A DNA stretch of 64,000 nucleotides from Aequorivita antarctica. GTDB taxonomy: Bacteria; Bacteroidota; Bacteroidia; Flavobacteriales; Flavobacteriaceae. The notes under the pieces were generated by a model. It was not told the origin of the DNA and searched no databases. It worked only from the letters and a program-made list of their open reading frames with translations. Below, in pieces: positions 1-35,054 of the stretch; the first letter of the stretch is position 1, and every line of letters starts with the position of its first letter. Made by a program: the position numbers and the translations under genes. Location: positions 62,001 to 126,000 of the forward strand of contig NZ_VORT01000004.1 in the NCBI RefSeq assembly GCF_007997155.1, written 5' to 3'.

Positions 1-601
1 TGCTTAATTTATAAACCGTATAAGTATTGTCCTTTTCACGCACAGCAATAAGATTATCATTGATAAAGGTGGAGCGAATGATTGGTGGATTTTGCTTTAA
101 TTTTAGCTCGTCGAACAGTAAATTGTTAGGTCCCCTTAGGAGTTGTATTGTTGCATTCTTCGTGTCTATTACCAATTCATTGTAGCTATAGTTTACAATA
201 TGCTTTCCCAGTACATTGGTGGTGCCTGTATCTTCTTTATAGTATTTAATAACTCTGGCATAACCGTTTTCAAAAGGGGTAGCAGCAAGATAATCTGCAG
301 GAATCACTTTTTCCCCCTTAGTGTTAATATAACCATAGAAGGTAATGCCGTCTCTCACTTCTTGAACTAAACAGTATCCCTCACTAAAAACAGGGGCTCC
401 ATTAGGTGAAACAACTATATCTTTTCTGTAAGCTATAGTAAGTGTTCCAGTATCATTAACAAATCCCCAAGAATTACCTTTTTTAACTCCTGCTAGCCCT
501 TCTTGAAAAGGGGCTATTTCATCAACCTCTGTAAGTACCTGTGCGGTTGAAAGAAAGGATAAACTTGTTAGCAGCAGCGTAATTAATATTGCAAGTTTCA
601 T
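1..601 (-). CDS. WG-repeat secreted protein, C-terminus outside window
   Basis: The minus strand is open from an ATG at 601 to the left edge (about 200 residues seen). Residues 1-20 form a Sec signal peptide ending STAQ. The rest has KKG/WGFVND and YGYINTKGEKVIPADY units spaced like WG (KWG) repeats, in which a short beta segment with W/Y-G-x-I/V-N/D recurs. Such proteins are exported and of unknown function, possibly binding ligands or surfaces. The start is supported by the signal peptide and by a Crp/Fnr-type promoter just upstream (641-683). The C-terminal end is not visible. Confidence 0.8.
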   Translation of the reverse strand, partial: MKLAILITLLLTSLSFLSTAQVLTEVDEIAPFQEGLAGVKKGNSWGFVNDTGTLTIAYRKDIVVSPNGAPVFSEGYCLVQEVRDGITFYGYINTKGEKVIPADYLAATPFENGYARVIKYYKEDTGTTNVLGKHIVNYSYNELVIDTKNATIQLLRGPNNLLFDELKLKQNPPIIRSTFINDNLIAVREKDNTYTVYKLS

Positions 602-640: not shown

Positions 641-683
641 TAAAATTAACTGTTGTTTTAGCATTTTAAAATGATATTTATCA
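641..683 (-). promoter_or_regulatory. Crp/Fnr-type box and -7 element for the WG-repeat gene
   Basis: TGATATTTATCA at 672-683 is a perfect TGAT-N4-ATCA palindrome. On the minus strand TAATTTTA (641-648) matches the Bacteroidota -7 consensus TAnnTTTG except at the last base. The centre-to-centre distance is 33 bp, which puts the palindrome near -41.5 from the expected start, the class II activator position. Four other sites in this window have the same geometry. Confidence 0.5.
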
Positions 684-704
684 GTTTAGCTAAAAATTAT
701 TAAA

Positions 705-747
705 TGACAAATGTCATTGTATTGATAAAGTTTGAAGTTTAACTTAG
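705..747 (+). promoter_or_regulatory. Crp/Fnr-type box and -7 element for the stress protein gene
   Basis: TGACAAATGTCA (705-716) sits inside a 16-bp inverted repeat (703-718). TAACTTAG (740-747) differs from TAnnTTTG at one base and is centred 33 bp from the box. Transcription would start near 753, giving a leader of about 185 nt before the universal stress protein ATG at 938. Nothing else is apparent in the 602-937 intergenic stretch. Confidence 0.45.
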
Positions 748-937
748 TTACTTAAAATGATAGTAGTGGTAAAAGCCGTATTATAAAAATGTGAAATGAA
801 CAATTTGTATGTGTTCCAAGCTATAGGGGTTCTACTTTGAAAATATTATGCCTTGCACCACTATAGAAAAATAGGGCAAAAGATGTAGCCTTTATTAGAT
901 CTTTTAAAAGAATGGTATTAATTAAAATTCTTCAAAA

Positions 938-1792
938 ATGAAAAATATTTTACTTCCCACAGATTTTTCCTTAAACGCTTTAAATGCCATAGAATACGCA
1001 ATACAGCTTTTTAAAGATGAAGATTGTACATTCCATTTGCTCAATACATTTACACCGATGGCATATAATGTTGCAACATTGGCAGATAGCTATTCAACCA
1101 TGATGATTGAGGAAATTAACAGACAAAATTCCGAAACCGGACTATTGGAAATTGAAAAACAGCTAAAAAAGAAATTTAATAACCCCAAACACGCTTTTCA
1201 AACATTAGCCTCTTTTAACTTGCTGGTCAGCGAAATTAAAGCGGTGGTCAAAGAACGCAATATTGATTTAATAGTAATGGGCACTAAAGGAGCAACAGGG
1301 GCACAAGAAGTTTTCCTGGGCACAAATACCATGTATACAATTAAAAAGGTGAAATGTGCTGTAATCGCAGTTCCTGCGAATATGAAATATGAAAAACCAA
1401 AGGAGATTTTATTCCCAACAGACTTTAAGTTTTCTATGGAAAATAAATATCTGAAACTTCTTAAATCTATTTGTACAAAACATATATCCCGACTAAATAT
1501 CTTAAATATATACTTCGGCGTACCTCTAGACTCCTCCCAAGAAAAAGTAAAAGACCAATTTGAAGTTTTTTTTAAAGATAACGCCCACCTTTTTCATACA
1601 GCTGAATATGAGGATATAACCGAGGCCGTGGCGCAATTTCAGATAAAATACAAAGCCAATTTCTTAGTGATGATTAATAATAAACATTCCTTTTTTGAAA
1701 ACCTATTTTTTAAACAAGTCATTAAAGAAATGGTATATCATACCAATGTGCCTTTTATGGTAATCCCTTCCACAAAATTAATGAAATCTTAA
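938..1792 (+). CDS. Tandem-domain universal stress protein
   Basis: This 284-residue cytoplasmic protein has two UspA-like domains in tandem, the usual form in Bacteroidota. The first opens with MKNILLPTDFSLNALNA and carries the nucleotide-binding signature GTKGATGAQEVFLG (around residues 110-123). The second opens with PKEILFPTDFKFS (about residue 150) but lacks a clear G-x2-G-x9-G signature, so only the N-terminal domain is likely to bind ATP. Such proteins act in survival under starvation or low oxygen, which fits the Crp/Fnr-type box upstream. A second Usp is at 18003-18833. Confidence 0.9.
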   Translation: MKNILLPTDFSLNALNAIEYAIQLFKDEDCTFHLLNTFTPMAYNVATLADSYSTMMIEEINRQNSETGLLEIEKQLKKKFNNPKHAFQTLASFNLLVSEIKAVVKERNIDLIVMGTKGATGAQEVFLGTNTMYTIKKVKCAVIAVPANMKYEKPKEILFPTDFKFSMENKYLKLLKSICTKHISRLNILNIYFGVPLDSSQEKVKDQFEVFFKDNAHLFHTAEYEDITEAVAQFQIKYKANFLVMINNKHSFFENLFFKQVIKEMVYHTNVPFMVIPSTKLMKS

Positions 1793-2039
1793 ACTCTCTA
1801 AGTGACCTTTGTTTTTTTTTTGATTTTTTAGACAACTTGTTTTTAAATCATTGACATAAATATTTACAATCAATTTTGAAAATGTGCATGGGGTGTATAT
1901 AGAATTCAATTGCATAATTTGCCTGTAAGGCAATATTGTAAACCAAATTGTGGAGGAAAATTTTAGGGATAACATTATTCCTATCAACAACATTTTTGTT
2001 TACCCGGTTTATACATTTAAATAACCAAAATAGAGCATT

Positions 2040-2573
2040 ATGAAAAAACTTAAAAGAATATCTCTTGCCATAATTTCCCTAATGCTGGTATTGTTTGCTC
2101 TTGGCTTTTGGTACAAAGCGACTTATTCAATGGAAGATACGGCTCCAAAGCAAGTAAATTTGGCAGATCTCGACACCAAGATTTTGATTGCTACCCAAGG
2201 AAGTGATTTTAAAAGGGCTATTGTAACCAACATTGTTAACCACTTTAAATTGGATTCTACCTTCCTTAATATCATTGATGTTAAAGAACTCAACACTAAA
2301 AATATCAATGATTACAAAGCCATTGTGATACTACATACCTGGGAATACGGAAATCCACCTCCATCGGTCATGGTTTTTATTGCCAAAAATCTAAAATATA
2401 AAAGTAAATTAATTGTCATGGCAACTTCAGGGAAAGGTACCAATAAAATTGGCGGAATCGATGCGCTCTCTGGAGAATCACTTATTGAAGATGCCAGTGA
2501 TTATTCCGATGAGATAATTGAGCGGATCAATAGAATATTAAAGACTAACACCATTTTAAATCAACCGGAATGA
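2040..2573 (+). CDS. Membrane-anchored protein, possible flavodoxin-like fold
   Basis: There are 177 residues. Residues 5-27 form one N-terminal membrane segment or uncleaved signal. The remainder alternates beta strands and helices: KILIATQGSDFKRAIV near residue 47, DYKAIVILHTWEYGNPPP near 92 and KLIVMATSGKGTNKIGG near 123. This order of a T/S-rich loop, an aromatic-rich loop and a third glycine loop resembles flavodoxins, but the phosphate-binding T/S-x-T-G-x-T motif is not canonical. It is a lone gene between intergenic regions of about 250-280 bp. The function assignment is inference. Confidence 0.55.
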   Translation: MKKLKRISLAIISLMLVLFALGFWYKATYSMEDTAPKQVNLADLDTKILIATQGSDFKRAIVTNIVNHFKLDSTFLNIIDVKELNTKNINDYKAIVILHTWEYGNPPPSVMVFIAKNLKYKSKLIVMATSGKGTNKIGGIDALSGESLIEDASDYSDEIIERINRILKTNTILNQPE

Positions 2574-2788
2574 TAAAGTTTTATATCCAATCCCCTTTTA
2601 AGTTGTTCCAGTATACATGTTGTGGATATTGTATTGAAACCTTTGTCATTAAAATTAATGAACAATTGGTAGCGATAGTTTTTCAACCTTTAAAAACAAG
2701 CGACCGAACTTAAAAAATAAAGAGCTGAAAAATCAAAAAAGAGTATGTCAATATTTTTTTAGTTTCACTTAAAATAGCCCTTTCAGTA

Positions 2789-2832
2789 ATGATATAAATC
2801 ATATTTAATTTAAGGGGTATAATGTAAATTTG
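2789..2832 (+). promoter_or_regulatory. Class II Crp/Fnr-type promoter
   Basis: ATGATATAAATCAT (2789-2802) is a perfect palindrome containing TGAT-N4-ATCA. TAAATTTG (2825-2832) matches the Bacteroidota -7 box TAnnTTTG exactly. Centres are 33 bp apart, placing the palindrome near -41.5. It lies 54 bp before the ATG at 2856 and would drive 2856-3242 and perhaps the following two genes. This is the clearest of the five such sites. Confidence 0.65.
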
Positions 2833-2855
2833 AATTATCCAATATTCTAGAAACT

Positions 2856-3242
2856 ATGGAAACATCTATTGTCTTAGCTAAGTTTTGGGGCTGGTACCTT
2901 CTTATTTTCTTTTTTATTTTAAGCTATAATCCAACCCGTATAAAGCAGATTTTTGATGATCTTAAAGATCGAAAATTTTCAGTTTTGGTAGCATTTATAT
3001 CAATTATAATAGGGTTGCTAAATGTCATATTCCATAATATATGGGATTCAAACTGGACAATTATCATTACCCTAATCGGCTGGATAGCTCTAGTTATGGG
3101 CTTGCTGTTATTTATTCTACCAAATCAAACAGCTAAATGGATTGAATATATAAATGTTAAACTGATACAAGTTATATACGTATTGCTTTTCTTGGTCGGA
3201 TTTTATTTGCTAAATGCAGGTTATCAATTGCTAGATTATTGA
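2856..3242 (+). CDS. Four-helix inner-membrane protein of unknown function
   Basis: A 128-residue, strongly hydrophobic protein with four predicted membrane helices (about residues 10-25, 42-62, 69-88 and 102-122) and short loops. No catalytic motif is visible. It follows the best Crp/Fnr-type promoter in the window and precedes a phosphatidyltransferase and a metallophosphoesterase on the same strand with a 64-bp gap, so it may share their transcript. A role in oxygen or energy stress is suggested only by the promoter. Confidence 0.6.
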   Translation: METSIVLAKFWGWYLLIFFFILSYNPTRIKQIFDDLKDRKFSVLVAFISIIIGLLNVIFHNIWDSNWTIIITLIGWIALVMGLLLFILPNQTAKWIEYINVKLIQVIYVLLFLVGFYLLNAGYQLLDY

Positions 3243-3306
3243 ATCGCTACTATCAATGTTTTTGATTTAACCCTATTTTAAAGATTTTCAATTGTTTAAA
3301 TAAATT

Positions 3307-3918
3307 ATGCTGACCTTCAAGAATTTTAATATTGCCGACTGGTTTTCGTTTTATCGGGTGGCAGTCGCGCCTTTTCTTTTCTTATTGATATTTCTCGATT
3401 TTCGCATACTTTTTACTTGGTTTCTTCTAGTCAGCTATTTAACCGATGCAATTGATGGCTATTTAGCGAGAAAATTAAAAATAACCAGCGCTAGGGGTTC
3501 TCAATTGGATTCATTTGGTGACCAAGTTACACTCATAATTGGAATCATTGGATTGTTTTTCTTTGAGCCTGATTTTATTCAACAAAATCTAACGTTACTG
3601 CTAATTGTATTTGTTCCTTATGGAATACAAATGTTCATTGCTTATAAGAAATATGGAAAAGCGACGGCTTTTCATACATACTTGGCAAAGCTATCAGCAA
3701 TAACACAGGCTGTCTTTATATTGTGGCTTTTATTTTTTGGCCCTGTTTACTGGTTGTTCTATTTTATGGTAGTGCTTGGTTTAATAGAAACCGCCGAAGA
3801 AATAACACTTATTTTCCTATACGATAAATGGGTGGCAGGAGTAAAAGGTTTGTATTGGGCATTAAGAGATAAACGGAGGCTTGAAAAAAGTGATAACACC
3901 AGTAATAAAAAGCAATAA
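3307..3918 (+). CDS. CDP-alcohol phosphatidyltransferase family protein
   Basis: The 203-residue integral membrane enzyme carries the full family signature DG-x2-AR-x8-G-x3-D-x3-D, starting DGYLARKL near residue 50 and ending LDSFGD. The aspartates bind the divalent cation and the CDP-alcohol. About six hydrophobic segments surround it. The family moves a phosphatidyl or diacylglycerol-phosphate group from CDP-diacylglycerol to an alcohol such as glycerol phosphate (PgsA-like); the acceptor cannot be told from sequence. Its stop overlaps the next ATG (TAATG at 3917-3920), so it is translationally coupled to the phosphoesterase. Confidence 0.88.
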   Translation: MLTFKNFNIADWFSFYRVAVAPFLFLLIFLDFRILFTWFLLVSYLTDAIDGYLARKLKITSARGSQLDSFGDQVTLIIGIIGLFFFEPDFIQQNLTLLLIVFVPYGIQMFIAYKKYGKATAFHTYLAKLSAITQAVFILWLLFFGPVYWLFYFMVVLGLIETAEEITLIFLYDKWVAGVKGLYWALRDKRRLEKSDNTSNKKQ

Positions 3919-5138
3919 TGCGATCCTATTCACTTTTTGCGGTTTTTTTACTCTGTATCGCTATTGTTTTGGTTGACGTACTTGCCTTTTATTGGTTGCA
4001 ATCAATCACACAACTTTTTGTTTCTTCAGCAGTAAAAACAATCATTGATATCTTGTTTTGGTCTTTTACTATTGGCCTGGTATCCGTTATTTTAATCCTG
4101 AAAATCCGAATGGAAACTGTACCAATAACCCAAAGGCAGTCCTTGATATCCTCTTTGTATGGATTGACGATTTCTTCTATTATACCTAAATTAATATTTA
4201 CCGTCGTTATCAGTATATTGTATTTTACAAATTATGTTTTTTCTGAAACAGATTCCTTCTTTATTGTTCCTATAGTGGGTTTAATCGCTGGTTTTCTTCC
4301 CTTTTTTATTATTCTATATGCAATTTCTAAGGCAGTCTATAACTTTAAGATCCATCGTGTTATCATTAAACACGAAAATTTACCCGATTCTTTTGAAGAT
4401 TTAAAGATTGTACATATATCCGACCTTCACCTCGGAAGCTTCGGTTATCGATATCGTATTTTGGAAAGAGCGGTTGCCAAAATTAATAAACTTGATGCCG
4501 ACCTTATTTTATTTACAGGCGATCTAGTAAATAACTTTGCATGGGAATTGAATGGATGGGATGCTGTATTAAAAAATTTATCAGCCAAAAAGGGGAAATA
4601 TGCAGTTCTGGGAAATCATGATTATGGCGATTATAGCAAATGGGATTCCCCAGTAGCCAAAAGAGAAAATTTTGAAAAAATAAAAAACTTTTACCAACAG
4701 ATTGGTTTCACATTACTTCTTAATGAAGCAGAACTGCTTATAGAAAACAACCAAAGCATTGCAATTGTAGGCGTTGAAAACTGGGGGCTTCCACCTTTTA
4801 GACAAGATGGCGATCTATTTAAAGCATTGAAAGAAGTAAAGGATATTCCATTTAAAATCTTACTATCCCACGATCCTTCCCATTGGGATGCAGAAGTTGC
4901 AAATCATACTAATATCGCTCTTACACTTTCGGGTCATACCCACGGAATGCAAGCAGGTATAAACTTTATGGGAAAAAAATGGAGTCCCATTAAATATAAA
5001 TACAAACGTTGGGCCGGATTGTATAACTGTAAAAAACAATTCTTATACGTTACTAGGGGACTGGGCTGGCTGGGATTTCCTGGAAGGCTGGGTATGCGAC
5101 CAGAAATCACTTTTATAACTTTAAAAAAGCCAGCCTAA
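3918..5138 (+). CDS. Membrane-anchored metallophosphoesterase
   Basis: There are 406 residues: four hydrophobic segments in the first 140, then a calcineurin-like phosphoesterase domain. Metal-binding motifs appear in order: ISDLHLG (about 168), LFTGDLVNN (about 197), LGNHDYGDY (about 232), LLSHDPSHW (about 314) and LSGHTHGMQAG (about 338). This arrangement resembles YkuE/LpxH-like enzymes. Start overlap with the phosphatidyltransferase suggests a shared job in phospholipid or head-group turnover, for instance dephosphorylating the product; that link is inference. Confidence 0.9.
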   Translation: MRSYSLFAVFLLCIAIVLVDVLAFYWLQSITQLFVSSAVKTIIDILFWSFTIGLVSVILILKIRMETVPITQRQSLISSLYGLTISSIIPKLIFTVVISILYFTNYVFSETDSFFIVPIVGLIAGFLPFFIILYAISKAVYNFKIHRVIIKHENLPDSFEDLKIVHISDLHLGSFGYRYRILERAVAKINKLDADLILFTGDLVNNFAWELNGWDAVLKNLSAKKGKYAVLGNHDYGDYSKWDSPVAKRENFEKIKNFYQQIGFTLLLNEAELLIENNQSIAIVGVENWGLPPFRQDGDLFKALKEVKDIPFKILLSHDPSHWDAEVANHTNIALTLSGHTHGMQAGINFMGKKWSPIKYKYKRWAGLYNCKKQFLYVTRGLGWLGFPGRLGMRPEITFITLKKPA

Positions 5139-5203
5139 ACAAAATTTCATCTTTCCATTTCATTAATGGATAAAATCGGAATGATACTTAAATCTAAAAC
5201 AAA

Positions 5204-5241
5204 CCGCCCAATCAATATCTAATTAAATATTGCTTGAGCGG
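5204..5241. terminator. Bidirectional hairpin between convergent genes
   Basis: CCGCCCAATCAATA (5204-5217) pairs with TATTGCTTGAGCGG (5228-5241), 12 of 14 positions, around a 10-nt loop. It sits between the convergent genes ending at 5138 (+) and 5251 (-), where a shared terminator is expected. The U-tract is weak in both directions. Confidence 0.55.
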
Positions 5242-5250
5242 TATAAACTT

Positions 5251-6168
5251 TTAGTTGCCCCTCTTACTGCTAGTGGTTTTGTCTCTTGCAGGCGATTGTC
5301 TTACTGGTAATCGCTGAACATTTTGTTTCTGTTGAACTCTATTCGTATTAAATTTATCAGAATTTACACGCACAGGATTTGGACTAACCTTATCAATACT
5401 TCTATAAGTGCTCGGTTCTGGATTGTTTATCCTAGGACGGTAAACCTGTAGCTCATCTTGATTTCGAGCTACCGAGGGTATTTTTTTCACCTCCCTAAGA
5501 GGAACTGACTCAATTTTCCTATCGGTATATTTTTCTACCTCATTAACATCAGGCCCTTTCGCATAATATTGGTTGTGATACCGAGTTGTACCATAGTTGT
5601 TATTTATTCTAATCCGACTTGTAAAACGATCATCCAGATTGCTTCGGCCTCTATTGCTAAGGTCTCTGTCGTAAATATAAATATGATCTACCACGTTCCA
5701 GTAAATTATTGGCGGTCTCCAGGTACCATACCAAACAACCACATTCACTGAAGGCATTAAAGGAGCCCAGGCGTAATAATCATCTATATCTCCCCAAAGT
5801 ACCCATGCGGGCGACCACTCATATCCAGGAATCCATAACCATCCGTATAAATCATCATATAACCAACGCCCGTAGTGAAAAGGAGCCCAACCCCAACTGT
5901 AATTCGAAATCCAAATCCATCCATCAACAGAATAATTCCAATGCCCATTTGTCAAATAAGGCCTAAAATCACCCTCAACAGAAGGCTGCCAAACATGTCC
6001 ATATCCAGGATAATCAATCCATATGCCATAAGGAGAGAGCCCGTCATAGAAACTTTGATAAGTTATTGTAGTTACAACTCTTTGAGCCGCCACCTTATCT
6101 ATTGTTATACTGCCAATGAATAAAAATAAACAAGTCAACAGCACTTTATAATTGTGATTCTTTTTCAT
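5251..6168 (-). CDS. DUF6600-like YxWxP-repeat secreted protein
   Basis: A 305-residue exported protein with a signal peptide (residues 1-28, ending KVAAQ). Residues 35-165 hold tryptophan/tyrosine-rich units, beginning FYDGLSPYGIWIDYPGYG and continuing with YSWGWAPFHYGRW, GWLWIPGYEWSPAW and YYAWAP. This matches DUF6600-type YxWxP repeats seen in Bacteroidota and Proteobacteria. The C-terminal third is basic and low complexity (N, R, Q, P), possibly binding a polyanion. The molecular role is unknown. A Crp/Fnr-type box at 6323-6334 sits 155 bp upstream of its ATG. Confidence 0.8.
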   Translation of the reverse strand: MKKNHNYKVLLTCLFLFIGSITIDKVAAQRVVTTITYQSFYDGLSPYGIWIDYPGYGHVWQPSVEGDFRPYLTNGHWNYSVDGWIWISNYSWGWAPFHYGRWLYDDLYGWLWIPGYEWSPAWVLWGDIDDYYAWAPLMPSVNVVVWYGTWRPPIIYWNVVDHIYIYDRDLSNRGRSNLDDRFTSRIRINNNYGTTRYHNQYYAKGPDVNEVEKYTDRKIESVPLREVKKIPSVARNQDELQVYRPRINNPEPSTYRSIDKVSPNPVRVNSDKFNTNRVQQKQNVQRLPVRQSPARDKTTSSKRGN

Positions 6169-6291
6169 TTTTTATATCATTTAAGTTAGTAATCAAGTTA
6201 TTTCAACACTGAAACATCCAAGGATTTAACTATCTAGGATATTGCAGCTGTCTATTTGCTTTTAGTAGTTAGGAAAATAGTAGATAGTAAT

Positions 6292-6334
6292 GAAAGATAA
6301 AAAAGGATGAAAATAAATACTATGATATATATCA
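6292..6334 (-). promoter_or_regulatory. Class II Crp/Fnr-type promoter of the DUF6600 gene
   Basis: TGATATATATCA (6323-6334) is a perfect TGAT-N4-ATCA palindrome. Reading leftward, TATCTTTC (complement of 6292-6299) matches TAnnTTTG except at the last base and is centred 33 bp away, the same spacing as at 2789-2832. A leader of roughly 115 nt would precede the ATG at 6168. Confidence 0.5.
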
Positions 6335-9980: not shown

Positions 9981-12074
9981 TTATTTTTTACCGATTTTTC
10001 GCTTTAATAATTGGGCATTAATAGCAACAATTATGGTGCTCAAACTCATTAACACAGCTCCTACCGCTGGGCCTAAAACAAAGCCTGAAGAATATAGTAC
10101 ACCAGCAGCTAGTGGAATGGCTACAACATTATATCCTGTTGCCCATATCAAGTTTTGAATCATTTTATTGTAGGTTGCTTTACCAAATAATATTAGGTTG
10201 GCAATATCCTGTGGATTGCTATTTACCAAAATAATATCGGCAGTTTCAGCAGCTACATCTGTACCAGAGCCAACTGCAATACCAACGTTTGCTTGTGCCA
10301 AGGCAGGCGCATCGTTTACACCATCTCCCGTCATAGCCACAAACTCGCCTTTTCCTTGTAATTCTTTAACTAGCTCAACTTTCTGATGAGGTAAAACTTC
10401 GGCATAATAACCGTCCAAGCCAAGTTTATCACTAACAGCTTTTGCCGTAATTTCATTATCTCCAGTTGCCATCAAAACTTTGATATTGTTCTTTTTGAAT
10501 ATTTTTATAGCTTCAGCAGATTCTGGTCTTATTTCATCAGCAAGAGCTATATATCCAACTAGTTGCCCATCAATTAATACAAATACAACCGTTTCAGCAG
10601 CATTACTAAAAGCATCTTTTGGAATTTCTATTTTTTCGTCTCTTAAGAAGCCTGGACTAACCACTTTTACTTGCTTCCCTTCTACATCTGCCTCAACACC
10701 TTTACCAGTAATCGCATTAAAGTTTTCAAGTTTTGGGATGTCAATTTTGTCTTCTCTAACTTTTTTAATAATTCCTACGGCAATGGGATGTTCTGAACTT
10801 TGTTCCAAGGCACTGGACAGTCGCAAAATTTCTTCGGTTGAATAGGATTCATTTACAGATTCAATTCTGGTAACGCCAAAATCTCCTTTGGTCAATGTTC
10901 CTGTTTTGTCAAATAACAAAACGGATATTTTACGTGATTCCTCAAAAGCCGTTCTATTACGAATCAATAATCCATTTTGTGCGGATACTGAGGTAGAAAT
11001 AGCAACTACTAAAGGAATTGCAAGACCAAGTGCGTGTGGACAAGCAATGACCATAACAGTAACCATTCGTTCCAATGCATATACAAATGGGAAGCCTAAA
11101 AGCAACCAAACTGCCAATGTTCCAAAACCGATACCCAAAGCAATATATGTCAACCATTTTGCAGCCCTATCGGAAAGGTTTTGCATTTTGGACTTGGTTT
11201 TTTGAGCTTCCTCAACCATTGTGATTACTTTGTTGAGATAGCTGTCTTTACCTGTATGCTCTACTTTTACCTTTATGCTGCCATTACCGTTAACTGACCC
11301 TCCAATTACTTTATCTTTTTCCTCTTTTTTTACTGGTTTCGATTCTCCAGTAAGCATAGATTCGTTTAAATAGCTTGAGCCTTCTACAATAATCCCATCT
11401 GCAGGAACTTTCTCTCCGGGCTTAACCAAAATGATATCGTCTATTAATAAATCTTCCAATGAAATATCTTCAATAGTATCGCCTTTTACGCGATGTGCTT
11501 CGGCTGGCATCATACTTACGAGAAGCTGTAGGGCTTTTGAAGCACCCAAAACACTCTTCATTTCTATCCAATGCCCAATGAGCATAATTGCGATTAGGGT
11601 AGCAAGTTCCCAGAAAAAGTCGACACCTTCTAAACCAAATACCGTGGCGGAACTATATACATAAGCTACGGTAATTGCCATAGATATAAGCGTCATCATT
11701 CCTGGTGCACCACTCTTTATTTCTGAAACAATACCTTTAAGAAAAGGCCATCCACCATAGAAATACACAATAGTAGAAAGAGCAAAAAGTATATATGGAT
11801 TACCCGGAAGTAAAAATTCATATCCGAAAAATCCTTGGATCATTGGCGAGAATATCAATATGGGAATTGTAAGTACAAGCGTTACCCAAAAGCGTTTCTT
11901 GAAGTCGGCAATCATCATTTTATGATGGTCGTGTCCAGCCATTCCCATGGGCGCATTACCGTCATGATTGGAATGATCCATTTTTGAATGGTTCTCCTTT
12001 TTGTTTTTCATCTTTGAATGGTCCATCTTTGAGTGATCCATTTTTTTGTTTTTGTGATGTTCGTGATTTTCCAT
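9981..12074 (-). CDS. copB: CopB-type copper-exporting P1B ATPase
   Basis: A 697-residue heavy-metal P-type ATPase. The first 50 residues are a His/Met-rich tail with repeated MDHSK units in place of a CxxC HMA domain. The transmembrane metal motif is CPH (IACPHALGLAIP, about 344-355), which defines the P1B-3/CopB subgroup. The TGES actuator motif (LTGESKPV), DKTGTLT phosphorylation site (about 390), HP locus (SSEHPIAVG) and GDGVNDAPAL hinge are all present. CopB-type pumps export copper, and in some members silver, to the periplasm, feeding the oxidases and RND systems further right. Confidence 0.93.
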   Translation of the reverse strand: MENHEHHKNKKMDHSKMDHSKMKNKKENHSKMDHSNHDGNAPMGMAGHDHHKMMIADFKKRFWVTLVLTIPILIFSPMIQGFFGYEFLLPGNPYILFALSTIVYFYGGWPFLKGIVSEIKSGAPGMMTLISMAITVAYVYSSATVFGLEGVDFFWELATLIAIMLIGHWIEMKSVLGASKALQLLVSMMPAEAHRVKGDTIEDISLEDLLIDDIILVKPGEKVPADGIIVEGSSYLNESMLTGESKPVKKEEKDKVIGGSVNGNGSIKVKVEHTGKDSYLNKVITMVEEAQKTKSKMQNLSDRAAKWLTYIALGIGFGTLAVWLLLGFPFVYALERMVTVMVIACPHALGLAIPLVVAISTSVSAQNGLLIRNRTAFEESRKISVLLFDKTGTLTKGDFGVTRIESVNESYSTEEILRLSSALEQSSEHPIAVGIIKKVREDKIDIPKLENFNAITGKGVEADVEGKQVKVVSPGFLRDEKIEIPKDAFSNAAETVVFVLIDGQLVGYIALADEIRPESAEAIKIFKKNNIKVLMATGDNEITAKAVSDKLGLDGYYAEVLPHQKVELVKELQGKGEFVAMTGDGVNDAPALAQANVGIAVGSGTDVAAETADIILVNSNPQDIANLILFGKATYNKMIQNLIWATGYNVVAIPLAAGVLYSSGFVLGPAVGAVLMSLSTIIVAINAQLLKRKIGKK

Positions 12075-12393: not shown

Positions 12394-13038
12394 TTATTTA
12401 TAGTTCATAGTAAAATAACTACCATCGGCTTCGGTAAATTTCTGAGAGGTCAATAAACCTTTTTCATTTAATTTCTCGTTAACGATATAGTTGAGTTGCT
12501 TAATGCGAATACCCAAAGTATAGGCTTTTATATTGATTTTTGATTTGATATTATCTTTGTTATAGTTCAATTTTCTCTCGTAAATTTTGATACTGCTTTT
12601 TGAACCAAAAAAATTTAATAAGCCTGAATCAAAACTCATTTCTAGTTCTATATCCTCTAGATTATCTAAATCGTACAATACTTTAAAATTTGTGGAAGTG
12701 GTGTTAATTTCAGTCTCTAGTGATTTTGGATCTGAAAACGGAAATGCCATTACCATTATACTGGCTTCATCTGGTTTACAGCGATAGGTTGTTGTGTATT
12801 TGTCGGTAGATTTTTTGTTTTTGTCAAACAGCTCTGTGATTACTTCAATTTCATAATATCCATTTATAGCGATAACTTTTCCAGATTCAAAAGTTTGTTT
12901 GTTGAGAAAAGCACCTTTTTCATCAAAATTCTCGCGAACCACAAACCTCCCTGAAATCTGCCCAATGAGCATTTCGGTCTGGCTAGTCATTGTGATACTG
13001 AATAAGATAATTATTAGTATGAAGCCTTGTTTTCTCAT
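12394..13038 (-). CDS. Exported protein of unknown function
   Basis: There are 214 residues with a signal peptide (about residues 1-20, MRKQGFILIIILFSITMTSQ). The mature part is beta-rich, with blocks ISGRFVVRENFDEKGAFLNK and KKSTDKYTTTYRCKPDEASI and a single cysteine. No family is recognised. Its start overlaps the stop of the PRPP-synthetase-like gene by 4 bp, so it is translationally coupled to it, which is unusual for an exported protein in a nucleotide-metabolism operon. Confidence 0.65.
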   Translation of the reverse strand: MRKQGFILIIILFSITMTSQTEMLIGQISGRFVVRENFDEKGAFLNKQTFESGKVIAINGYYEIEVITELFDKNKKSTDKYTTTYRCKPDEASIMVMAFPFSDPKSLETEINTTSTNFKVLYDLDNLEDIELEMSFDSGLLNFFGSKSSIKIYERKLNYNKDNIKSKINIKAYTLGIRIKQLNYIVNEKLNEKGLLTSQKFTEADGSYFTMNYK

Positions 13039-13928
13039 ATATGATGCATCAATTTCTTTACTTCTTTTGCCATTATATCACTCAAATCAATAGCATTTGA
13101 AGGATGGGGAATGGTGTTGCAGGTTACTATTTTTTCTACAACGGAATCCAACAAATCCTGATAGGCATTGCCCGAAAAAACTGCGTGAATACCAACACAA
13201 ATTGGTGGTTTCATCCCTGCTTTTTTTAGGTGTTTCACAGTTTCAATCATTGTTCGTGCAGTCGAGATAATATCATCTACCAAAATAGGTGTGGCATCTT
13301 TGTATTTATCTACATCTGGAACCGAGACTTCCACATCACGGTCGCCGTGACGCACTTTCTGTAATACCGTAAATGGTACTCCAGCATTTTTGGCAACTTC
13401 CGATACCCATTGCTCACTTTCAGAATCGGGACCGATAAGAACAGGATTTTCAACATTTTCCTTTATCCATTCTGAAATAGCATTGGCTGCGTGAATGACT
13501 TTGTTTGGAATTTGATAGACTTCGCCCAAAGAGCTTATTCTATGCAAGTGCGGGTCAACCGTGGTAATGCTATCGGCAAAACCAGAAATCAATTTCCCGA
13601 AGAAGCCTGAAGTAACGCCTTCGCCTTCATTAAATACTTTGTCCTGACGCATATAGGCGAGATATGGTGCTACCAGACAGGTACACATCGCTCCGAGCGA
13701 TTTTGCAGTATGGCTTAAAAAATAGAGCGGTAACAGTTTTTCGTCTGGTTCGTGCAGGGTGCAGACCAGTACTACACATTTATCTTTAACATCAGATAGA
13801 ATACGTGTGTAAGATTCTCCATCAGGGAAGTTGCGCAAAGTAGCTTTGCCCACTTCAGCATCCATTTTCGCTGCCAAAAGTTCTGTGAGTTCTTCATTTC
13901 CGGGAAGGCTGAATAATATCGTTTGCAT
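13035..13928 (-). CDS. Ribose-phosphate diphosphokinase-like enzyme
   Basis: The 297-residue protein has both halves of a PRPP synthetase: RNFPDGESYTRI near residue 36, PYLAYMRQDKVFNEGEG near 88, TVDPHLHR near 123, IGPDSESEQWV near 160, and the PRPP loop VDDIISTART near 215. Compared with canonical Prs, the loop reads START rather than DTAGT, and DPHLHR replaces the usual DLHADQ-like segment; the archaeal class is closest. It would make PRPP from ribose 5-phosphate and ATP, or run in reverse. It is 10 bp downstream of an AMP-phosphorylase-like gene, hinting at a shared ribose-phosphate pathway. Confidence 0.82.
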   Translation of the reverse strand: MQTILFSLPGNEELTELLAAKMDAEVGKATLRNFPDGESYTRILSDVKDKCVVLVCTLHEPDEKLLPLYFLSHTAKSLGAMCTCLVAPYLAYMRQDKVFNEGEGVTSGFFGKLISGFADSITTVDPHLHRISSLGEVYQIPNKVIHAANAISEWIKENVENPVLIGPDSESEQWVSEVAKNAGVPFTVLQKVRHGDRDVEVSVPDVDKYKDATPILVDDIISTARTMIETVKHLKKAGMKPPICVGIHAVFSGNAYQDLLDSVVEKIVTCNTIPHPSNAIDLSDIMAKEVKKLMHHI

Positions 13929-13938
13929 AGTATATTTT

Positions 13939-15441
13939 TTAAATTATGGTTATAATATCGTTGTGGTTATTTTTATAGTCCATAGCATAATTAAGTTCGC
14001 CTATGGATTCTGCATAAAGCGTGTACAGTAATTGGTTTTTTTCAATTTTGTCGTTTAAATGGACATTCAATGAAATCCCTGCTGATTTAGATTGAGGTGC
14101 ACCTGAAAGTTTGGCGAGTTTTGCAATTTTTCTGTTATCGATTCTTTCTAAAATTCCTGAATTTTCTGCTCTAATCTCAATTTTATAGGGTGCTAAAACA
14201 GGTTTTGAAAAGCGACCTTGGGCTTTACAAATGGCGATAAATTTTTTATAAGCTTTTCCAGATTGGAGTACTTTTTGTGCAGTCTTATATCCTTTCCCTT
14301 TTTCAACTTTCCCAGAAAGTTCCAATAGTTCCCCTGCCAAAAACAACGCTCTTTCCAATAGGTCTTTGGGTGCATCAGCTTCATTTTTTAAGACCTTTAA
14401 TATATCGATCGCTTCTAATGTAGGACCAATACCTCTCCCAACGGGCTGCGTACCATCTGTAATAACAACTTTCACTTTTAGACCAACAGCTTTGCCCACG
14501 GTTTCCAAATGTTCTTTTAATTGCTGTGCCATTTCCGTACTGCGTACCTTGGCGGTTTCTCCTACAGGAATATCAATAATAACGTGTGTGGATCCTGCCG
14601 CAGCTTTTTTTGAAAGTACAGAAGCAATCAATTGTCCTTCGCTATCAATATCCAAAGCTTTTTCAATTTTAATGAGCACATCATCCGCAGGACTTAATTG
14701 CGCCGTTCCTCCCCACACGATGCAACCACCTTCATTTTCCACCACATTTTTTATTTCTTCGGAAGAAAGTGTAACATTGGTCAATACTTCCATTGTATCT
14801 GCTGTACCTGCTGGCGAAGTGATGGCACGGGAAGACGTTTTGGGCATTGTAAGCCCATAAGCGGCAACGATGGCAACTATCAATGGCGTTGTTCTATTGC
14901 CAGGTAATCCACCAATACAATGCTTATCGACCACGATTTCTTTGTTCCAATTCAATTGCTTACCGGAAGCAATCATAGCTTTCGTGAGGTCGGATATTTC
15001 GTTAATATCCATCCTGCCACCTGCACAGGCTGTAATGAATGCCGAGAGGTGGATGTTGGAATAATCTCCCTGAACAATATCTGTGATGATTTCTTTATAA
15101 GCGTTATAATCCAATTTTTGATTATAGATTTTTGCCCTTACGTGGCTTAAGGATTCAATAGGTTCCAAATGTGAAACATATAAGGTTTCATTTGGGGAAA
15201 CATTCAGTTTTTCGGCAGCTGAATCTGAAAGTCCAATTTCATCGGGCAACAGCATATCTGAATTTATCACATTGAGGCTTGCCACAATGGAAATGTTGAG
15301 ATTTGAAACCCGAATTCGGGTAAGTGCCTCAAAACCTTCTGAAACACACACATGGCAATCTTCGTGCATATACACCACATTCTCGTTTTGGGTATAGATG
15401 CCAAGATGCTTGTATTTAAGGATATTTGATTGCTGTGCCAT
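13939..15441 (-). CDS. deoA: AMP/thymidine phosphorylase, archaeal type
   Basis: This 500-residue enzyme matches the long, archaeal-type branch of the thymidine phosphorylase family (about 500 residues against 440 for bacterial DeoA). It has the N-terminal double-barrel extension (residues 1-85), the phosphate-site region KHCIGGLPGNRTTPLIVAI (about 168-186), then KTSSRAITSPAGTADTMEV and a C-terminal GISLNVHLNDKI domain. In archaea this branch converts AMP and phosphate to adenine and ribose 1,5-bisphosphate. No ribose-1,5-bisphosphate isomerase or RuBisCO gene is visible, so the product must go elsewhere. Substrate remains inference. Confidence 0.85.
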   Translation of the reverse strand: MAQQSNILKYKHLGIYTQNENVVYMHEDCHVCVSEGFEALTRIRVSNLNISIVASLNVINSDMLLPDEIGLSDSAAEKLNVSPNETLYVSHLEPIESLSHVRAKIYNQKLDYNAYKEIITDIVQGDYSNIHLSAFITACAGGRMDINEISDLTKAMIASGKQLNWNKEIVVDKHCIGGLPGNRTTPLIVAIVAAYGLTMPKTSSRAITSPAGTADTMEVLTNVTLSSEEIKNVVENEGGCIVWGGTAQLSPADDVLIKIEKALDIDSEGQLIASVLSKKAAAGSTHVIIDIPVGETAKVRSTEMAQQLKEHLETVGKAVGLKVKVVITDGTQPVGRGIGPTLEAIDILKVLKNEADAPKDLLERALFLAGELLELSGKVEKGKGYKTAQKVLQSGKAYKKFIAICKAQGRFSKPVLAPYKIEIRAENSGILERIDNRKIAKLAKLSGAPQSKSAGISLNVHLNDKIEKNQLLYTLYAESIGELNYAMDYKNNHNDIITII

Positions 15442-15467
15442 AGTGTTTATATTAAAAATTTCGAAGC

Positions 15468-16844
15468 TTATTCTATTTCTTCAATGTTGTAGAGTTGTGG
15501 GATTTCAGAATCCCATCCATAGGTTTCTTTGATGCCTTTTTGAAGTGCTTCCGCACTTTCTTTTTCTCCGTGTACAATGAAAATCCGTTCGGGCCTATTT
15601 TTTATCTTACTCATCCAATCCATAAGTTCTGCGTGGTCAGCGTGTGCCGAGAGACCTTCAACTTCAGCTACCTGCATTTTAAAAGGCACCCATTTTCCGT
15701 ACACTTTTAGTTCCTTTTCGCCTTCCAACAATTTTCTTCCACGAGTTCCTTCAGCTTGATAACCCACAAAAAGCAACGTATTATTTGGGTTTTGCGCCTG
15801 TGTTTCAAGATAGTTGAGAATTCTCCCACCTGTTAGCATTCCACTCCCTGCAATCACGATTTTTGGTTTGTTGTCGGTTCGCAATTCCATTGTTTCACGA
15901 TAACTGCTTACGACCGTGAAGTGGGAACACATTTCATCACATTCATTGTCTTCTAATCTGTGCCAATCCCTTGTGCGGTGGAACAGTTCCAATACACTAG
16001 CGCCCATTGGGCTGTCCATTATCATTTGTACTTTGGGTATTTTGTTCTCCTTGAGTAATTTCCAAAAAATCAACATCATAAGTTGGGCACGTTCTACCGA
16101 AAAGCTTGGAACAAATAGGCTACCGCCTCTATCAAAAGTGTCTTTGACTAATTTTTCAATCTGCGGAATAGCTTCCACTTCATCAGGATGAAACCTTCCG
16201 CCATAAGTAGATTCTATGAATAGTACATCTGCCTTTTTTGGTTTTAGAGGTGGATACAATAGTAAGTCGTTCGTTCTTCCTATATCGCCTGAAAAAACAA
16301 AGCGTTTGCCGTTTAAATCCAATTCAATATAAGTAGCGCCGAGAATATGTCCGTTGTATTGAAATCGAGCTCTTATGCCATCAAATAATGGAATCCATTG
16401 TGCCTGCGGAACGCCCTTAAAATGTGGAATGGTTTTTTCTACATCTTTTAAATCGTAGAGTGGTTCTGCTGGGCTATGCTTGGAATAACCTTCCTTGTTG
16501 GCACGTTCGGCTTCCTGTTCCTGTATTTTACCACTATCATTAAGTATGATTTCTGCGATGTCCAACGTTGGATTGGTGCCATATATAGGTCCCTTAAATC
16601 CTTGTTTTACCAACCTTGGCAGATATCCAGTATGGTCCAAATGGCCGTGTGTTAGCAAAACCATATCAATTTCTGAAACTTCCACAGGTGGATGTTCCCA
16701 GTTTTTAAGGCGTAATTCCTTTAGCCCTTGAAAAAGCCCGCAGTCTATGAGTATCTTTCTCTCTCCTGTGTCCACTAAATATTTTGAGCCGGTTACTGTA
16801 CCTGCTGCGCCCAAAAAGTGGATGTTTATTTTATTGTTTTTCAT
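15468..16844 (-). CDS. Beta-CASP metallo-beta-lactamase RNase-type protein
   Basis: The 458-residue protein has the metallo-beta-lactamase core with THGHLDHTGYLPRL (HxHxDH, about 65-78), FSGDIGR (about 181), then a beta-CASP domain (about 210-370) with SVERAQLMMLIF and GSGMLTGGR, and the terminal RMMBL block GLSAHADHAELMDW. This is the architecture of KH-less CPSF73/YsiA-like RNA-processing nucleases. Such genes commonly neighbour phosphorylase, Prs and stress-protein genes in low-energy operons. It lies 26 bp upstream of the AMP phosphorylase start. Confidence 0.88.
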   Translation of the reverse strand: MKNNKINIHFLGAAGTVTGSKYLVDTGERKILIDCGLFQGLKELRLKNWEHPPVEVSEIDMVLLTHGHLDHTGYLPRLVKQGFKGPIYGTNPTLDIAEIILNDSGKIQEQEAERANKEGYSKHSPAEPLYDLKDVEKTIPHFKGVPQAQWIPLFDGIRARFQYNGHILGATYIELDLNGKRFVFSGDIGRTNDLLLYPPLKPKKADVLFIESTYGGRFHPDEVEAIPQIEKLVKDTFDRGGSLFVPSFSVERAQLMMLIFWKLLKENKIPKVQMIMDSPMGASVLELFHRTRDWHRLEDNECDEMCSHFTVVSSYRETMELRTDNKPKIVIAGSGMLTGGRILNYLETQAQNPNNTLLFVGYQAEGTRGRKLLEGEKELKVYGKWVPFKMQVAEVEGLSAHADHAELMDWMSKIKNRPERIFIVHGEKESAEALQKGIKETYGWDSEIPQLYNIEEIE

Positions 16845-16859
16845 TTTTATAGAATTTAT

Positions 16860-17114
16860 TTAGTGTCCACTACAACAAGATGACGTGTTTCCTTTGTCTT
16901 GGCTAGATTCGTTCATTTCCGCTATTTCATTGTATAGCTCGCGGGAATCCTCTTTGATAAGAAGCGCCAACTTCTTTACTGATTTGGGTTCAAAATTTAC
17001 CATCCCCAATAATATTTCAAGGGCCTCTTCAAGTAATTTTGGGTCATCTTCCAAGGCTTGATAAAATGGTTCGAAATTTATGCTGTTCTGTTGTTTCAAT
17101 TCTTCAGTTTTCAT
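16860..17114 (-). CDS. Small acidic protein with C-terminal CC motif
   Basis: An 84-residue, helix-rich, acidic protein that ends SSCCSGH. The body has LEEALEILLGMVNFEPKSVK and LALLIKEDSRELYNEI. The terminal Cys-Cys-x-x-His could bind a metal or be redox-active. No family is recognised. It is located between the beta-CASP nuclease (15 bp gap) and the ATP-cone protein (43 bp gap) in the same direction. Confidence 0.6.
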   Translation of the reverse strand: MKTEELKQQNSINFEPFYQALEDDPKLLEEALEILLGMVNFEPKSVKKLALLIKEDSRELYNEIAEMNESSQDKGNTSSCCSGH

Positions 17115-17157
17115 AAGATTTGTTTTTAAGTATTGTTAAACCTTTTATTATTAGAGG

Positions 17158-18000
17158 TTAAGTGCTTTTGCATAACGCCTTAGAATCTTCTAAAATCTTT
17201 TTGTGTCTTTTTTTACTAATTCCTATTTGGTTTAATAGCACTGGGTTTTCGTGAAGCTCTTTGCAGAGCACAATGTTTTTATCTAATAACTTTGTTTTCT
17301 CGGCTTTGGTGAGAGTTGTTAAGGCGGTTAGTGGGTGAAAGCCAGATTTATCTATTCGTTCTTTTAAACCGTTTCCTATTGGGTAATCCCAACTTGTCAA
17401 TAATAAACCTACACATTTACCATATTGAATCGCGTCAGTTGTGAATCGCGTATTGGTGTACACACCTCCTTTATGAAGTTTAGTTTCGTGGCCTTTTTGA
17501 TGTTCCCATTGTTTCTCAACATCCAAAAATCTTGAGTGGATATATAATGGAGTTTTCACACTGCAAAACCGTCCTTGGTGACTATGATATTTACATTCAA
17601 TCATATAATGTTTATTATCTTTTTGCGCTATTACATCTATTTCATGCTGCACACAACTACCTTGTACAATCACACCAACTTTTGTTGTATACCCTTCGTG
17701 CGCAAATAGTTTGCCCACTAGATTTTCAAAAGGAAAACCCGTTGGGCCCAGTTCCATCAAGGCTTTTTTGAGTTTGTATTTTGAAGCACTTACTCTCGAT
17801 TTGCTCTTTAGCATCTTGAATGCCAATTGATAGATTTTTTTAGTAGTCATTCCTTCTTCGAGTTGCTCTTGTACCTTACGGGCTATATCCTGAACAATGT
17901 CTTCCTCTGCTTTTGAACGGCGTAAGGAGTTGATGAGTTTGTTAACATCAAAGGCCTGAAGCTCACCGGAATATTTTGTTATTAAGACTGATTTATTCAT
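17158..18000 (-). CDS. ATP-cone plus Mrr-like nuclease fusion protein
   Basis: Residues 1-90 form an ATP-cone (VLITKYSGELQAFDVNKLIN, then EEDIVQDIARKVQEQL and MTTKKIYQLAFKML), the nucleotide-sensing module of ribonucleotide reductases and NrdR. Residues 95-190 form a restriction-endonuclease-like fold with EIDVIAQKD and MIECKYH, giving E-x-D-x(n)-E-x-K, the PD-(D/E)xK catalytic core of the Mrr branch. The C-terminal 60 residues contain an HhH-like LNQIGISKKRHKKIL. A nuclease gated by ATP/dATP level is a reasonable inference. It sits 2 bp from the Usp gene, in the stress module. Confidence 0.8.
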   Translation of the reverse strand: MNKSVLITKYSGELQAFDVNKLINSLRRSKAEEDIVQDIARKVQEQLEEGMTTKKIYQLAFKMLKSKSRVSASKYKLKKALMELGPTGFPFENLVGKLFAHEGYTTKVGVIVQGSCVQHEIDVIAQKDNKHYMIECKYHSHQGRFCSVKTPLYIHSRFLDVEKQWEHQKGHETKLHKGGVYTNTRFTTDAIQYGKCVGLLLTSWDYPIGNGLKERIDKSGFHPLTALTTLTKAEKTKLLDKNIVLCKELHENPVLLNQIGISKKRHKKILEDSKALCKST

Positions 18001-18002
18001 CG

Positions 18003-18833: not shown

Positions 18834-18884
18834 AGTTTATTGATTTTTAGGTGTAATGCGATACTTAATTTTTTTAGATTATTA

Positions 18885-19946: not shown

Positions 19947-19957
19947 TTCAATAAAGA

Positions 19958-34477: not shown

Positions 34478-34900
34478 TTAAATTAAGAAGGTCTCGTTGA
34501 GAATAATTATATCTGTAGATAGGAGAGGAGGCCTATAGGTTTGAAAAGAAATTACATTTTCCTCTAGTCCCTCAAAAAGATTAATATAGGTATAAAAGAA
34601 AGTATTGATGAAAACAAGATTCTCATTTTCTAATATGATATTGGATTTTTTGAAGGTATCATCTCCTTCTTTGACAATGGTTTGGTTGCTACAGCAATCT
34701 TTCTCTTGTAGGGTAGTGCATTGTTTGGAAGTATTATCTTTTTTATGAACTATGTCCTTACAAGATTCTGTTTTACCAAAAAAAGCTATATCCACCAATT
34801 CATTACAACAAAAGTGCATATCTACCGAAAAAGAAGAGGTAGAAAACAGTATGAAAACTGCTAAAAAGAAGGATAATATTCTAGTAAATAAAGGTTTCAC
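34478..34900 (-). CDS. HYC_CC_PP family exported protein (GTG start)
   Basis: A 140-residue exported protein starting with GTG at 34900. The signal peptide (about 1-27) is followed by VDMHFCCNELVDIAFFG, then EKDCCSN and near the C-terminus YRPPLL, the HYC, CC and PP landmarks of the family (HFC here). The cysteines and histidine probably bind copper. Paralogue of 35171-35587 on the other strand; the two face away from each other across a shared promoter region. Confidence 0.8.
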   Translation of the reverse strand: MKPLFTRILSFFLAVFILFSTSSFSVDMHFCCNELVDIAFFGKTESCKDIVHKKDNTSKQCTTLQEKDCCSNQTIVKEGDDTFKKSNIILENENLVFINTFFYTYINLFEGLEENVISFQTYRPPLLSTDIIILNETFLI

Positions 34901-35011: not shown

Positions 35012-35054
35012 CTAAGATAATTTTAAAGTTTCTTCAAGAATATGACTTTTGTCA
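35012..35054 (-). promoter_or_regulatory. Crp/Fnr-type promoter of the leftward HYC_CC_PP gene
   Basis: TGACTTTTGTCA (35043-35054), inside ATGAC-N4-GTCAT, is a TGA-N6-TCA palindrome. On the minus strand TATCTTAG (complement of 35012-35019) is a one-mismatch TAnnTTTG, centred 33 bp away, as at the four other sites. It predicts a start near 35005 and a leader of about 105 nt before the GTG at 34900. Confidence 0.4.

Follow-up and report, generated by a model that had tools for sequence, protein, structure and literature searches.

Fixed-geometry Crp/Fnr-type promoter sites in Aequorivita antarctica and a receiver-Crp fusion as their likely regulator

In a stretch of 64,000 nucleotides from Aequorivita antarctica (contig NZ_VORT01000004.1, positions 62,001 to 126,000; hereafter the window) we found that palindromes of the form TGAY-N4-RTCA stand at one fixed distance upstream of a -7 promoter box, TAnnTTTG, and that the same arrangement recurs across the genome. 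The sequence evidence supports the view that these sites mark a real Crp/Fnr-type regulon of exact geometry, with a predicted response to oxygen limitation and nitric oxide (NO). Its likely regulator here is a fusion of a receiver domain to a Crp-type protein, belonging to a two-component system, rather than a stand-alone Fnr sensor. A Crp/Fnr low-oxygen regulon is as such known; the new part is a genome-wide class II code in Bacteroidota, a phylum whose activator-dependent promoters are to our knowledge little charted, together with the receiver-Crp fusion as the probable regulator.

The original prediction named four palindromes in the left 6 kb of the window; for each, the centre of a -7-like octamer lies 33 bp off (a gap of 23 between palindrome and box), on the strand of the downstream gene. 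Upon re-scanning, all four pairs were recovered at the same coordinates, with one mismatch in three of the four boxes (5, 5, 6 and 5 of six positions matched). The left 6 kb does hold these four sites, but a fifth at 35043-35054 had been overlooked and the genome-wide extent is far larger. The sites are as follows:

672..683, - strand: palindrome TGATAAATATCA (read on -), promoter of the WG-repeat gene
641..648, - strand: -7 box TAATTTTA, gap 23 from palindrome 672..683, match 5/6
705..716, + strand: palindrome TGACAAATGTCA, promoter of the universal stress protein (Usp) gene
740..747, + strand: -7 box TAACTTAG for Usp, match 5/6
2790..2801, + strand: palindrome TGATATAAATCA, promoter of the 128-aa membrane protein gene
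2825..2832, + strand: -7 box TAAATTTG for the 128-aa membrane protein, match 6/6
6323..6334, - strand: palindrome TGATATATATCA, promoter of the DUF6600 gene
6292..6299, - strand: -7 box TATCTTTC for the DUF6600 gene, match 5/6
35043..35054, - strand: fifth palindrome TGACTTTTGTCA (TGACAAAAGTCA read on -), upstream of the open reading frame (ORF) 34478-34900 (-)
35012..35019, - strand: -7 box TATCTTAG of the fifth site, centre 33 bp from the palindrome

The window contains seven TGAY-N4-RTCA palindromes, five of which have a box matching at ≥5/6 positions at gap 23 on one strand, compared with two boxes at the next best of the 61 gaps tested. For a random octamer the chance of a ≥5/6 match is ∼0.010 per strand, and we estimate the chance of the window pattern at ∼1e-7 for gap 23, or a few 1e-6 after allowing for the 61 gaps.

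Across the genome (3.84 Mb, 66 contigs), TGAN6TCA combined with an exact box at gaps of 8-38 gave 51 matches, 17 of them at gap 23, whilst no other gap had more than three and gap 24 only one; the backwards pattern gave 34 exact boxes over all gaps. When one mismatch was allowed in TGAY-N4-RTCA plus TAnnTTTG, there were 47 matches at gap 23 against three for the backwards control, and five at gap 22 against 13, with a few of the 47 carrying their mismatch within the palindrome and possibly due to chance. An ORF start was found downstream of 43 by a loose rule and none for one; among the 14 that were checked for location inside ORFs, three lay there. The genome-wide count that the original prediction had proposed as its own check thus came out as a strong excess, lying upstream of stress genes. 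Related loci gave the same picture: in 80 loci around the candidate regulator (1.30 Mb), there were 495 copies of TGAY-N4-RTCA compared with 94 of the reversed motif and 101 of TGAR-N4-YTCA, and boxes matching at ≥5/6 numbered 432 at gap 23, against a mean of 11.3 and a maximum of 26 for the other 40 gaps. These loci, the best 80 of 562 and strongly redundant by genus, were chosen by the presence of the regulator and hence are no random sample of genomes.

A sequence logo was built from 41 own and 427 related sites; TGAY/RTCA and a ≥5/6 box were the criteria of selection, and those positions are therefore fixed by choice. On the 5' side of the palindrome, sequences are A/T-rich and then (A/C), the inside is W-rich, and the 3' side reads T-(A/T)-T-T, after which no signal is seen up to the box. 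The outer T/A pair beside TGA/TCA that typifies the FNR operator TTGAT-N4-ATCAA is not characteristic of either set: A or C predominates at position -48, where T accounts for 12% of own sites and 2% of related ones, and TCA is followed by T, not A. TTG between -35 and -28 is scarce (9/41 own and 36/427 related sites). Spacing between operator and core promoter is fixed to the base, as the gap 23 and gap 22 counts show and as is expected of a class II promoter. In Flavobacterium psychrophilum, a passage of PMC9723704 places the TAnnTTTG box at -12 to -5; as the palindrome centre lies 33 bp upstream of the box, it would fall at -41.5 from the predicted start sites. The class II placement near -41.5 claimed by the original prediction would accordingly be exact if the box position of F. 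psychrophilum holds. Taken together, the fixed single-base spacing, the conservation of sites with a diverged spacer (see below) and the scarcity of a -33 TTG point to activation.

The genes behind the sites suggest the condition. They include a fused CcoN-CcoO (Pfam COX1 and FixO; NCBIfam for CcoNO), a CcoI-type P-ATPase (Pfam heavy-metal P-ATPase), a radical-SAM protein of HemN type (Pfam; HemN_C below cut-off), a NorC-like cytochrome c (Pfam) followed by NorB, Q, D and E as read by eye, a second cytochrome c resembling it, RIC (ScdA_N plus Hemerythrin), the S30AE ribosome-hibernation factor HPF, and Usp proteins (all three by Pfam). Two sulfide-quinone-reductase-like flavoproteins (by eye; Pfam assigns Pyr_redox_2), an acetyl-CoA hydrolase/transferase, an ADP-forming CoA-ligase-like protein, phosphofructokinase, an alcohol dehydrogenase, and patatin, MlaE, DUF302, WG-repeat and DUF6600 proteins complete the list. 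Because CcoNO, the CcoI-type ATPase, the HemN-type protein, the NorC-like cytochrome, RIC, HPF and Usp are among the targets, the single oxygen- or NO-responsive regulon of the original prediction gains support. In line with this, PMC9723704 describes cbb3 oxidase and heme-synthesis enzymes as strongly raised in F. psychrophilum under oxygen limitation.

The five window sites lie ahead of the following genes:

1..601, - strand: WG-repeat protein gene, 201 aa, extending a few bases beyond the window edge (PF14903 in L042:7996-8601)
938..1792, + strand: Usp gene, 284 aa (PF00582, 1.3e-24)
2856..3242, + strand: 128-aa membrane protein gene, behind palindrome 2790..2801
5251..6168, - strand: DUF6600 protein gene (PF20245, 3e-29)
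34478..34900, - strand: HYC_CC_PP family protein gene (NF047658, 97.4 bits, cut-off 28), behind the fifth site

For the 128-aa membrane protein a Pfam search gave no match. Conservation was searched in 27 other Aequorivita genomes, and the counts that follow are of genomes in which the gene was found (G and L numbers are our labels for genomes and loci). The Usp gene, accepted at E 1e-60 or better, was found in six, all of which have a gap-23 site with a ≥5/6 box on the same strand, at most ∼240 bases upstream. Four genomes have the 128-aa gene, with its own site in two (G166 and G164), whilst in G154 and G172 it follows closely behind Usp without one. A WG gene also appears at two of the Usp loci, those of G166 and G164, and its promoter has the same geometry there; the DUF6600 gene, found in G164 and G151, retains its gap-23 site in both with a diverged spacer. 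For each of the four promoters in the left part of the window, at least two other Aequorivita genomes thereby share the geometry. The fifth site is at the margin of a copper-resistance island (34478-60019, with 9981-12074) of RND efflux pumps, multicopper oxidases and a Cu P-type ATPase, the last assigned by an NCBIfam-type model search and the other genes read by eye; its position suggests that copper handling may be connected with low oxygen.

A search of the genome (G000) with PF13545 returned six matches, three of them above cut-off, and none with the CxxC N-terminus of FNR, the oxygen sensor with a [4Fe-4S] cluster. One of them, L001, is a 350-aa protein in which a receiver (PF00072, 4.1e-29) occupies the N-terminal position and is followed by the cNMP fold (PF00027, 1.1e-16) and Crp-type helix-turn-helix (PF13545, 2.8e-13) that define the Crp/Fnr superfamily, both above cut-off. 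Its gene lies directly behind a PAS-HisKA-HATPase kinase gene, and Asp52 and Lys104 of the receiver are invariant in 10 aligned rows, as befits a two-component response regulator. Within the recognition helix, GIATESLIR, Glu316 and Arg320 (the equivalents of Glu-181 and Arg-185) are invariant in 10 aligned fusions. Glu at CRP position 181 correlates with a TGA half-site, according to a passage in PMC1274295; as Glu and Arg are in place and there is no Arg at 180, the helix fits an FNR-like rather than a CRP-like half-site on the terms set out there. Among the titles and abstract openings listed from the open-access literature, we found none on a receiver-Crp fusion in Bacteroidota or on this operator geometry, which does not prove absence.

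The neighbourhood of the fusion gene also connects it with the sites. Its closest named relatives, among the matches listed, are from Aequorivita (up to 93% identical), and in A. antarctica a site stands ∼25 bases beyond the fusion gene, ahead of a Usp gene. Of ten genomes compared from outside the genus, all ten have the kinase gene together with the fusion gene, and eight have Usp beside the pair (L058 by eye). Each of the 80 loci has a Usp motif and at least one site, and in 76 a site lies just 3' of the fusion gene; a HemN motif is present in 24, mostly of Aquimarina. CcoI- and HemN-like genes follow the fusion gene in G057 (by eye). Window genes recur here as well: a WG-repeat homologue (38% identical) with its own site adjoins the cluster in L050, and homologues of the 128-aa protein lie beside Usp in L059 and L062 (54% identical for L062:4233-4619). 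Of the four PF13545 matches in G133, all of which were read, the fusion alone has Glu at 181, and the motif count there is 29 against one for the control; G076 is alike, the fusion being the sole carrier among the four of five matches that were read.

Further features of these clusters deserve mention. A protein of 133-144 aa is encoded divergently from the kinase in seven of 11 clusters examined, with its own gap-23 site in five (L038:14057-14461 (-), L062:8737-9147, L050:2179-2613, L054:3026-3430, L055:2881-3282, L059:2726-3139 and L061:2965-3375); the own copy has no Pfam match, and one pair compared was 44% identical, the others being judged by eye. In G105, which also has a Cys-type Fnr, locus L053 encodes a 1092-aa multi-domain kinase and, in the same order, a fusion regulator that is more distantly related (Crp half 34% identical). 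Within the window, 13035-20971 (-) holds a run of archaeal-type enzymes (PRPP synthetase, an archaeal-family thymidine/AMP phosphorylase, class I aldolase, type II GAPDH and a beta-CASP nuclease), the nuclease being related to aCPSF1 but below that model's cut-off. The run also includes a Usp-like gene. The nuclease and a 280-aa gene (15468-18000, -) are 56% and 47% identical to counterparts at L060:1441-3666 in the fusion-gene/Usp cluster of G071, just beyond which, at L060:1351, a gap-23 site faces the next gene.

The kinase suggests what the signal may be. Compared with solved proteins, its PAS domain is closest to DosP (9.5e-19) and FixL (3.9e-15), the next other match being at 1.6e-6. Across 77 PAS segments picked by pattern from related loci, the position of the proximal heme ligand of FixL is His in 74 and that of its distal Arg is Arg in 65 (His200 and Arg220 in FixL numbering). 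A PAS domain of FixL/DosP type with the proximal His is thus present by sequence and heme binding by this kinase is plausible. As the domain resembles these heme-based oxygen sensors, the signal is probably oxygen or NO.

From these elements we propose that a Crp/Fnr-type activator dimer would bind TGAY-N4-RTCA centred at ∼-41.5 in class II fashion and recruit the flavobacterial sigma-A polymerase to the TAnnTTTG box of promoters that mostly lack the usual -33 TTG. The regulon would serve life with low oxygen and NO through cbb3 oxidase and its assembly, anaerobic heme synthesis, NO reductase and iron-centre repair, and would extend to ribosome hibernation, fermentation and redox enzymes, and Usp proteins. 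Its activator would most likely be the response regulator in which a receiver is fused to the Crp-type cNMP fold and helix-turn-helix. The histidine kinase encoded just ahead of this protein would switch it, with a DosP/FixL-like PAS domain that would report oxygen or NO. We consider this explanation as a whole fairly probable.

A number of observations weigh against it. The fusion clusters of two genomes, G105 and G057, showed no Usp. A site ahead of the kinase gene was found by a uniform rule in just one of 77 loci, so that general autoregulation is not supported and, in spite of such sites in G061 and G057, autoregulation of the kinase gene is not claimed. The PAS domain of the G133 kinase is closer to that of another kinase (1.6e-11) than to FixL (3.5e-6), FixL ranks first but more weakly (2.9e-11) for G130, and several relatives lack the distal Arg; because the matches of G133 and G130 are weaker, heme sensing is something that we infer. 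In the genome of A. antarctica itself, L003 (helix VETVIR) and the weaker match L005 (PESLSR) also carry Glu/Arg. Lastly, motif excess was compared across the order in the 77 of 146 genomes of ≥2.4 Mb; the 69 smaller ones, which were set aside beforehand, include four that have a relative of the fusion's Crp half and three that have one of L003. Whether or not a genome has a relative of the Crp half, the excess is alike (a median of 19 in both groups, p 0.43). As it does not follow the fusion, the same sign must elsewhere have other Crp/Fnr proteins as its readers; and as it is equal with or without relatives of the fusion's Crp half and with or without L003, the operator sign is of greater age or wider use than the fusion. 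This general excess meant that the order-wide phylogenetic profile failed to separate the fusion from L003.

The regulon could therefore be the same with a different activator, namely the stand-alone Crp homologue L003 (C43:267922-268506), alone or sharing sites with the fusion. Besides its Glu/Arg helix, L003 is divergent from a gene that reads by eye as a truncated hemoglobin, and in family f4 several genomes combine motif excess and up to eight L003-like copies with no relative of the fusion's Crp half at 1e-20. We nevertheless hold this to be unlikely: at the same threshold, L003 relatives are absent from 14 of 28 genomes of the window's family without a change in motif excess (median 31 vs 29, p 0.80), and the nearest of the 47 matches lies ∼44 kb from L003, compared with ∼25 bases past the fusion gene, around which sites crowd in relatives. 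An L002-type Crp, encoded beside a peroxiredoxin-like gene and present in all seven genomes inspected, was ruled out as a reader of TGA half-sites by its Val at the Glu-181 position, whilst in G057 the nearest such protein (L179) has Glu there.

If the sign were instead read by a metabolite-sensing Crp (responding to cAMP, for example), the sites would define a carbon or energy regulon rather than one for oxygen and NO. Phosphofructokinase and acetyl-CoA enzymes are indeed among the targets, and Flavobacteriales CRP/FNR homologues were predicted to sense carbon in a metagenome study (PMC8510549); that prediction, however, used a MalR matrix from Bacteroides, which is another motif source. With a core of cbb3 oxidase, CcoI-type ATPase, HemN-type enzyme, NorC-like cytochrome and RIC, and with the response of F. 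psychrophilum noted above (PMC9723704), we regard a carbon regulon as very unlikely. Hardly credible, finally, is the notion that the palindromes serve a repressor, or that they are AT-rich palindromes which lie near promoters by chance. Although this AT-rich genome contains TGATNNNNATCA in no small number (114 copies vs 43 of the backwards control), the fixed single-base spacing, the conservation with a diverged spacer and the scarce -33 TTG speak for activation instead.

Returning to the fusion as the likely regulator, its origin may lie in a change of sensor. In related genomes such as G061, G105, G110 and G091 we found 225-240 aa Fnr-like proteins (L049, L051, L052 and L172) whose helix, GTATES.IR, is near-identical to the GIATES.IR of the fusions; unlike these, they have an N-terminal CxxC in place of the receiver, and none was found in the A. 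antarctica genome. When 27 Crp domains were placed in a tree, the 11 fusions came out as a single group (91/86), which joins the Cys-type group as a neighbouring clade at weak support (80/69). Based on this grouping and the shared helix, the fusion would represent a change of sensor with operators retained.

Known systems offer partial parallels. The FNR/ANR/DNR regulons of Proteobacteria have TGA..TCA operators, class II placement and targets of cbb3, HemN, Nor and Usp type; here such operators and targets recur and the same placement is predicted. Unlike those systems, this genome yielded no Cys-type FNR, a -7 box TAnnTTTG replaces the -10 element, and the operators lack the outer T/A of TTGAT...ATCAA and have a 3' T(A/T)TT stretch. 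DosS/DosT-DosR of mycobacteria is a two-component system for hypoxia and NO that controls many Usp genes and a ribosome-hibernation factor, and two-component-type control of such genes is what we propose here. The output of DosR, however, is LuxR-type, and DosS/DosT sense via GAF rather than PAS heme domains, whereas the candidate system here has a Crp-type output and a PAS kinase. A further parallel is the rhizobial FixL-FixJ-FixK cascade, as represented by hFixL-FxkR-FixK of Rhizobium leguminosarum (PMC7888657) and by FixK2 (PMC9104804), which likewise has a PAS-type sensor kinase, a response regulator, a Crp/Fnr output and cbb3 oxidase (FixNOQP) as a target. It differs in phylum and core promoter, and in that Usp genes are prominent here; furthermore, as receiver and Crp output are one protein in Aequorivita, no separate FixK gene need be induced. 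Tentatively, and with rather less than even confidence, we suggest that marine Flavobacteriia may possess a compressed counterpart of this cascade, in which a heme-PAS kinase would phosphorylate a receiver-Crp fusion and the fusion would itself directly switch on a large regulon for hypoxia, NO and dormancy. Its operators, which a Cys-type Fnr with a near-identical helix reads elsewhere, would have been taken over by the fusion.

Should the fusion be the regulator, it would follow that a Crp/Fnr output can exchange an iron-sulfur sensor for a phosphorylation input whilst its operators are kept. The exact operator-to-box rule should also allow the low-oxygen regulon to be read from flavobacterial genomes, and it gives a condition to genes of unknown function such as those for the WG-repeat, DUF6600 and 128-aa membrane proteins and the 134-aa gene.

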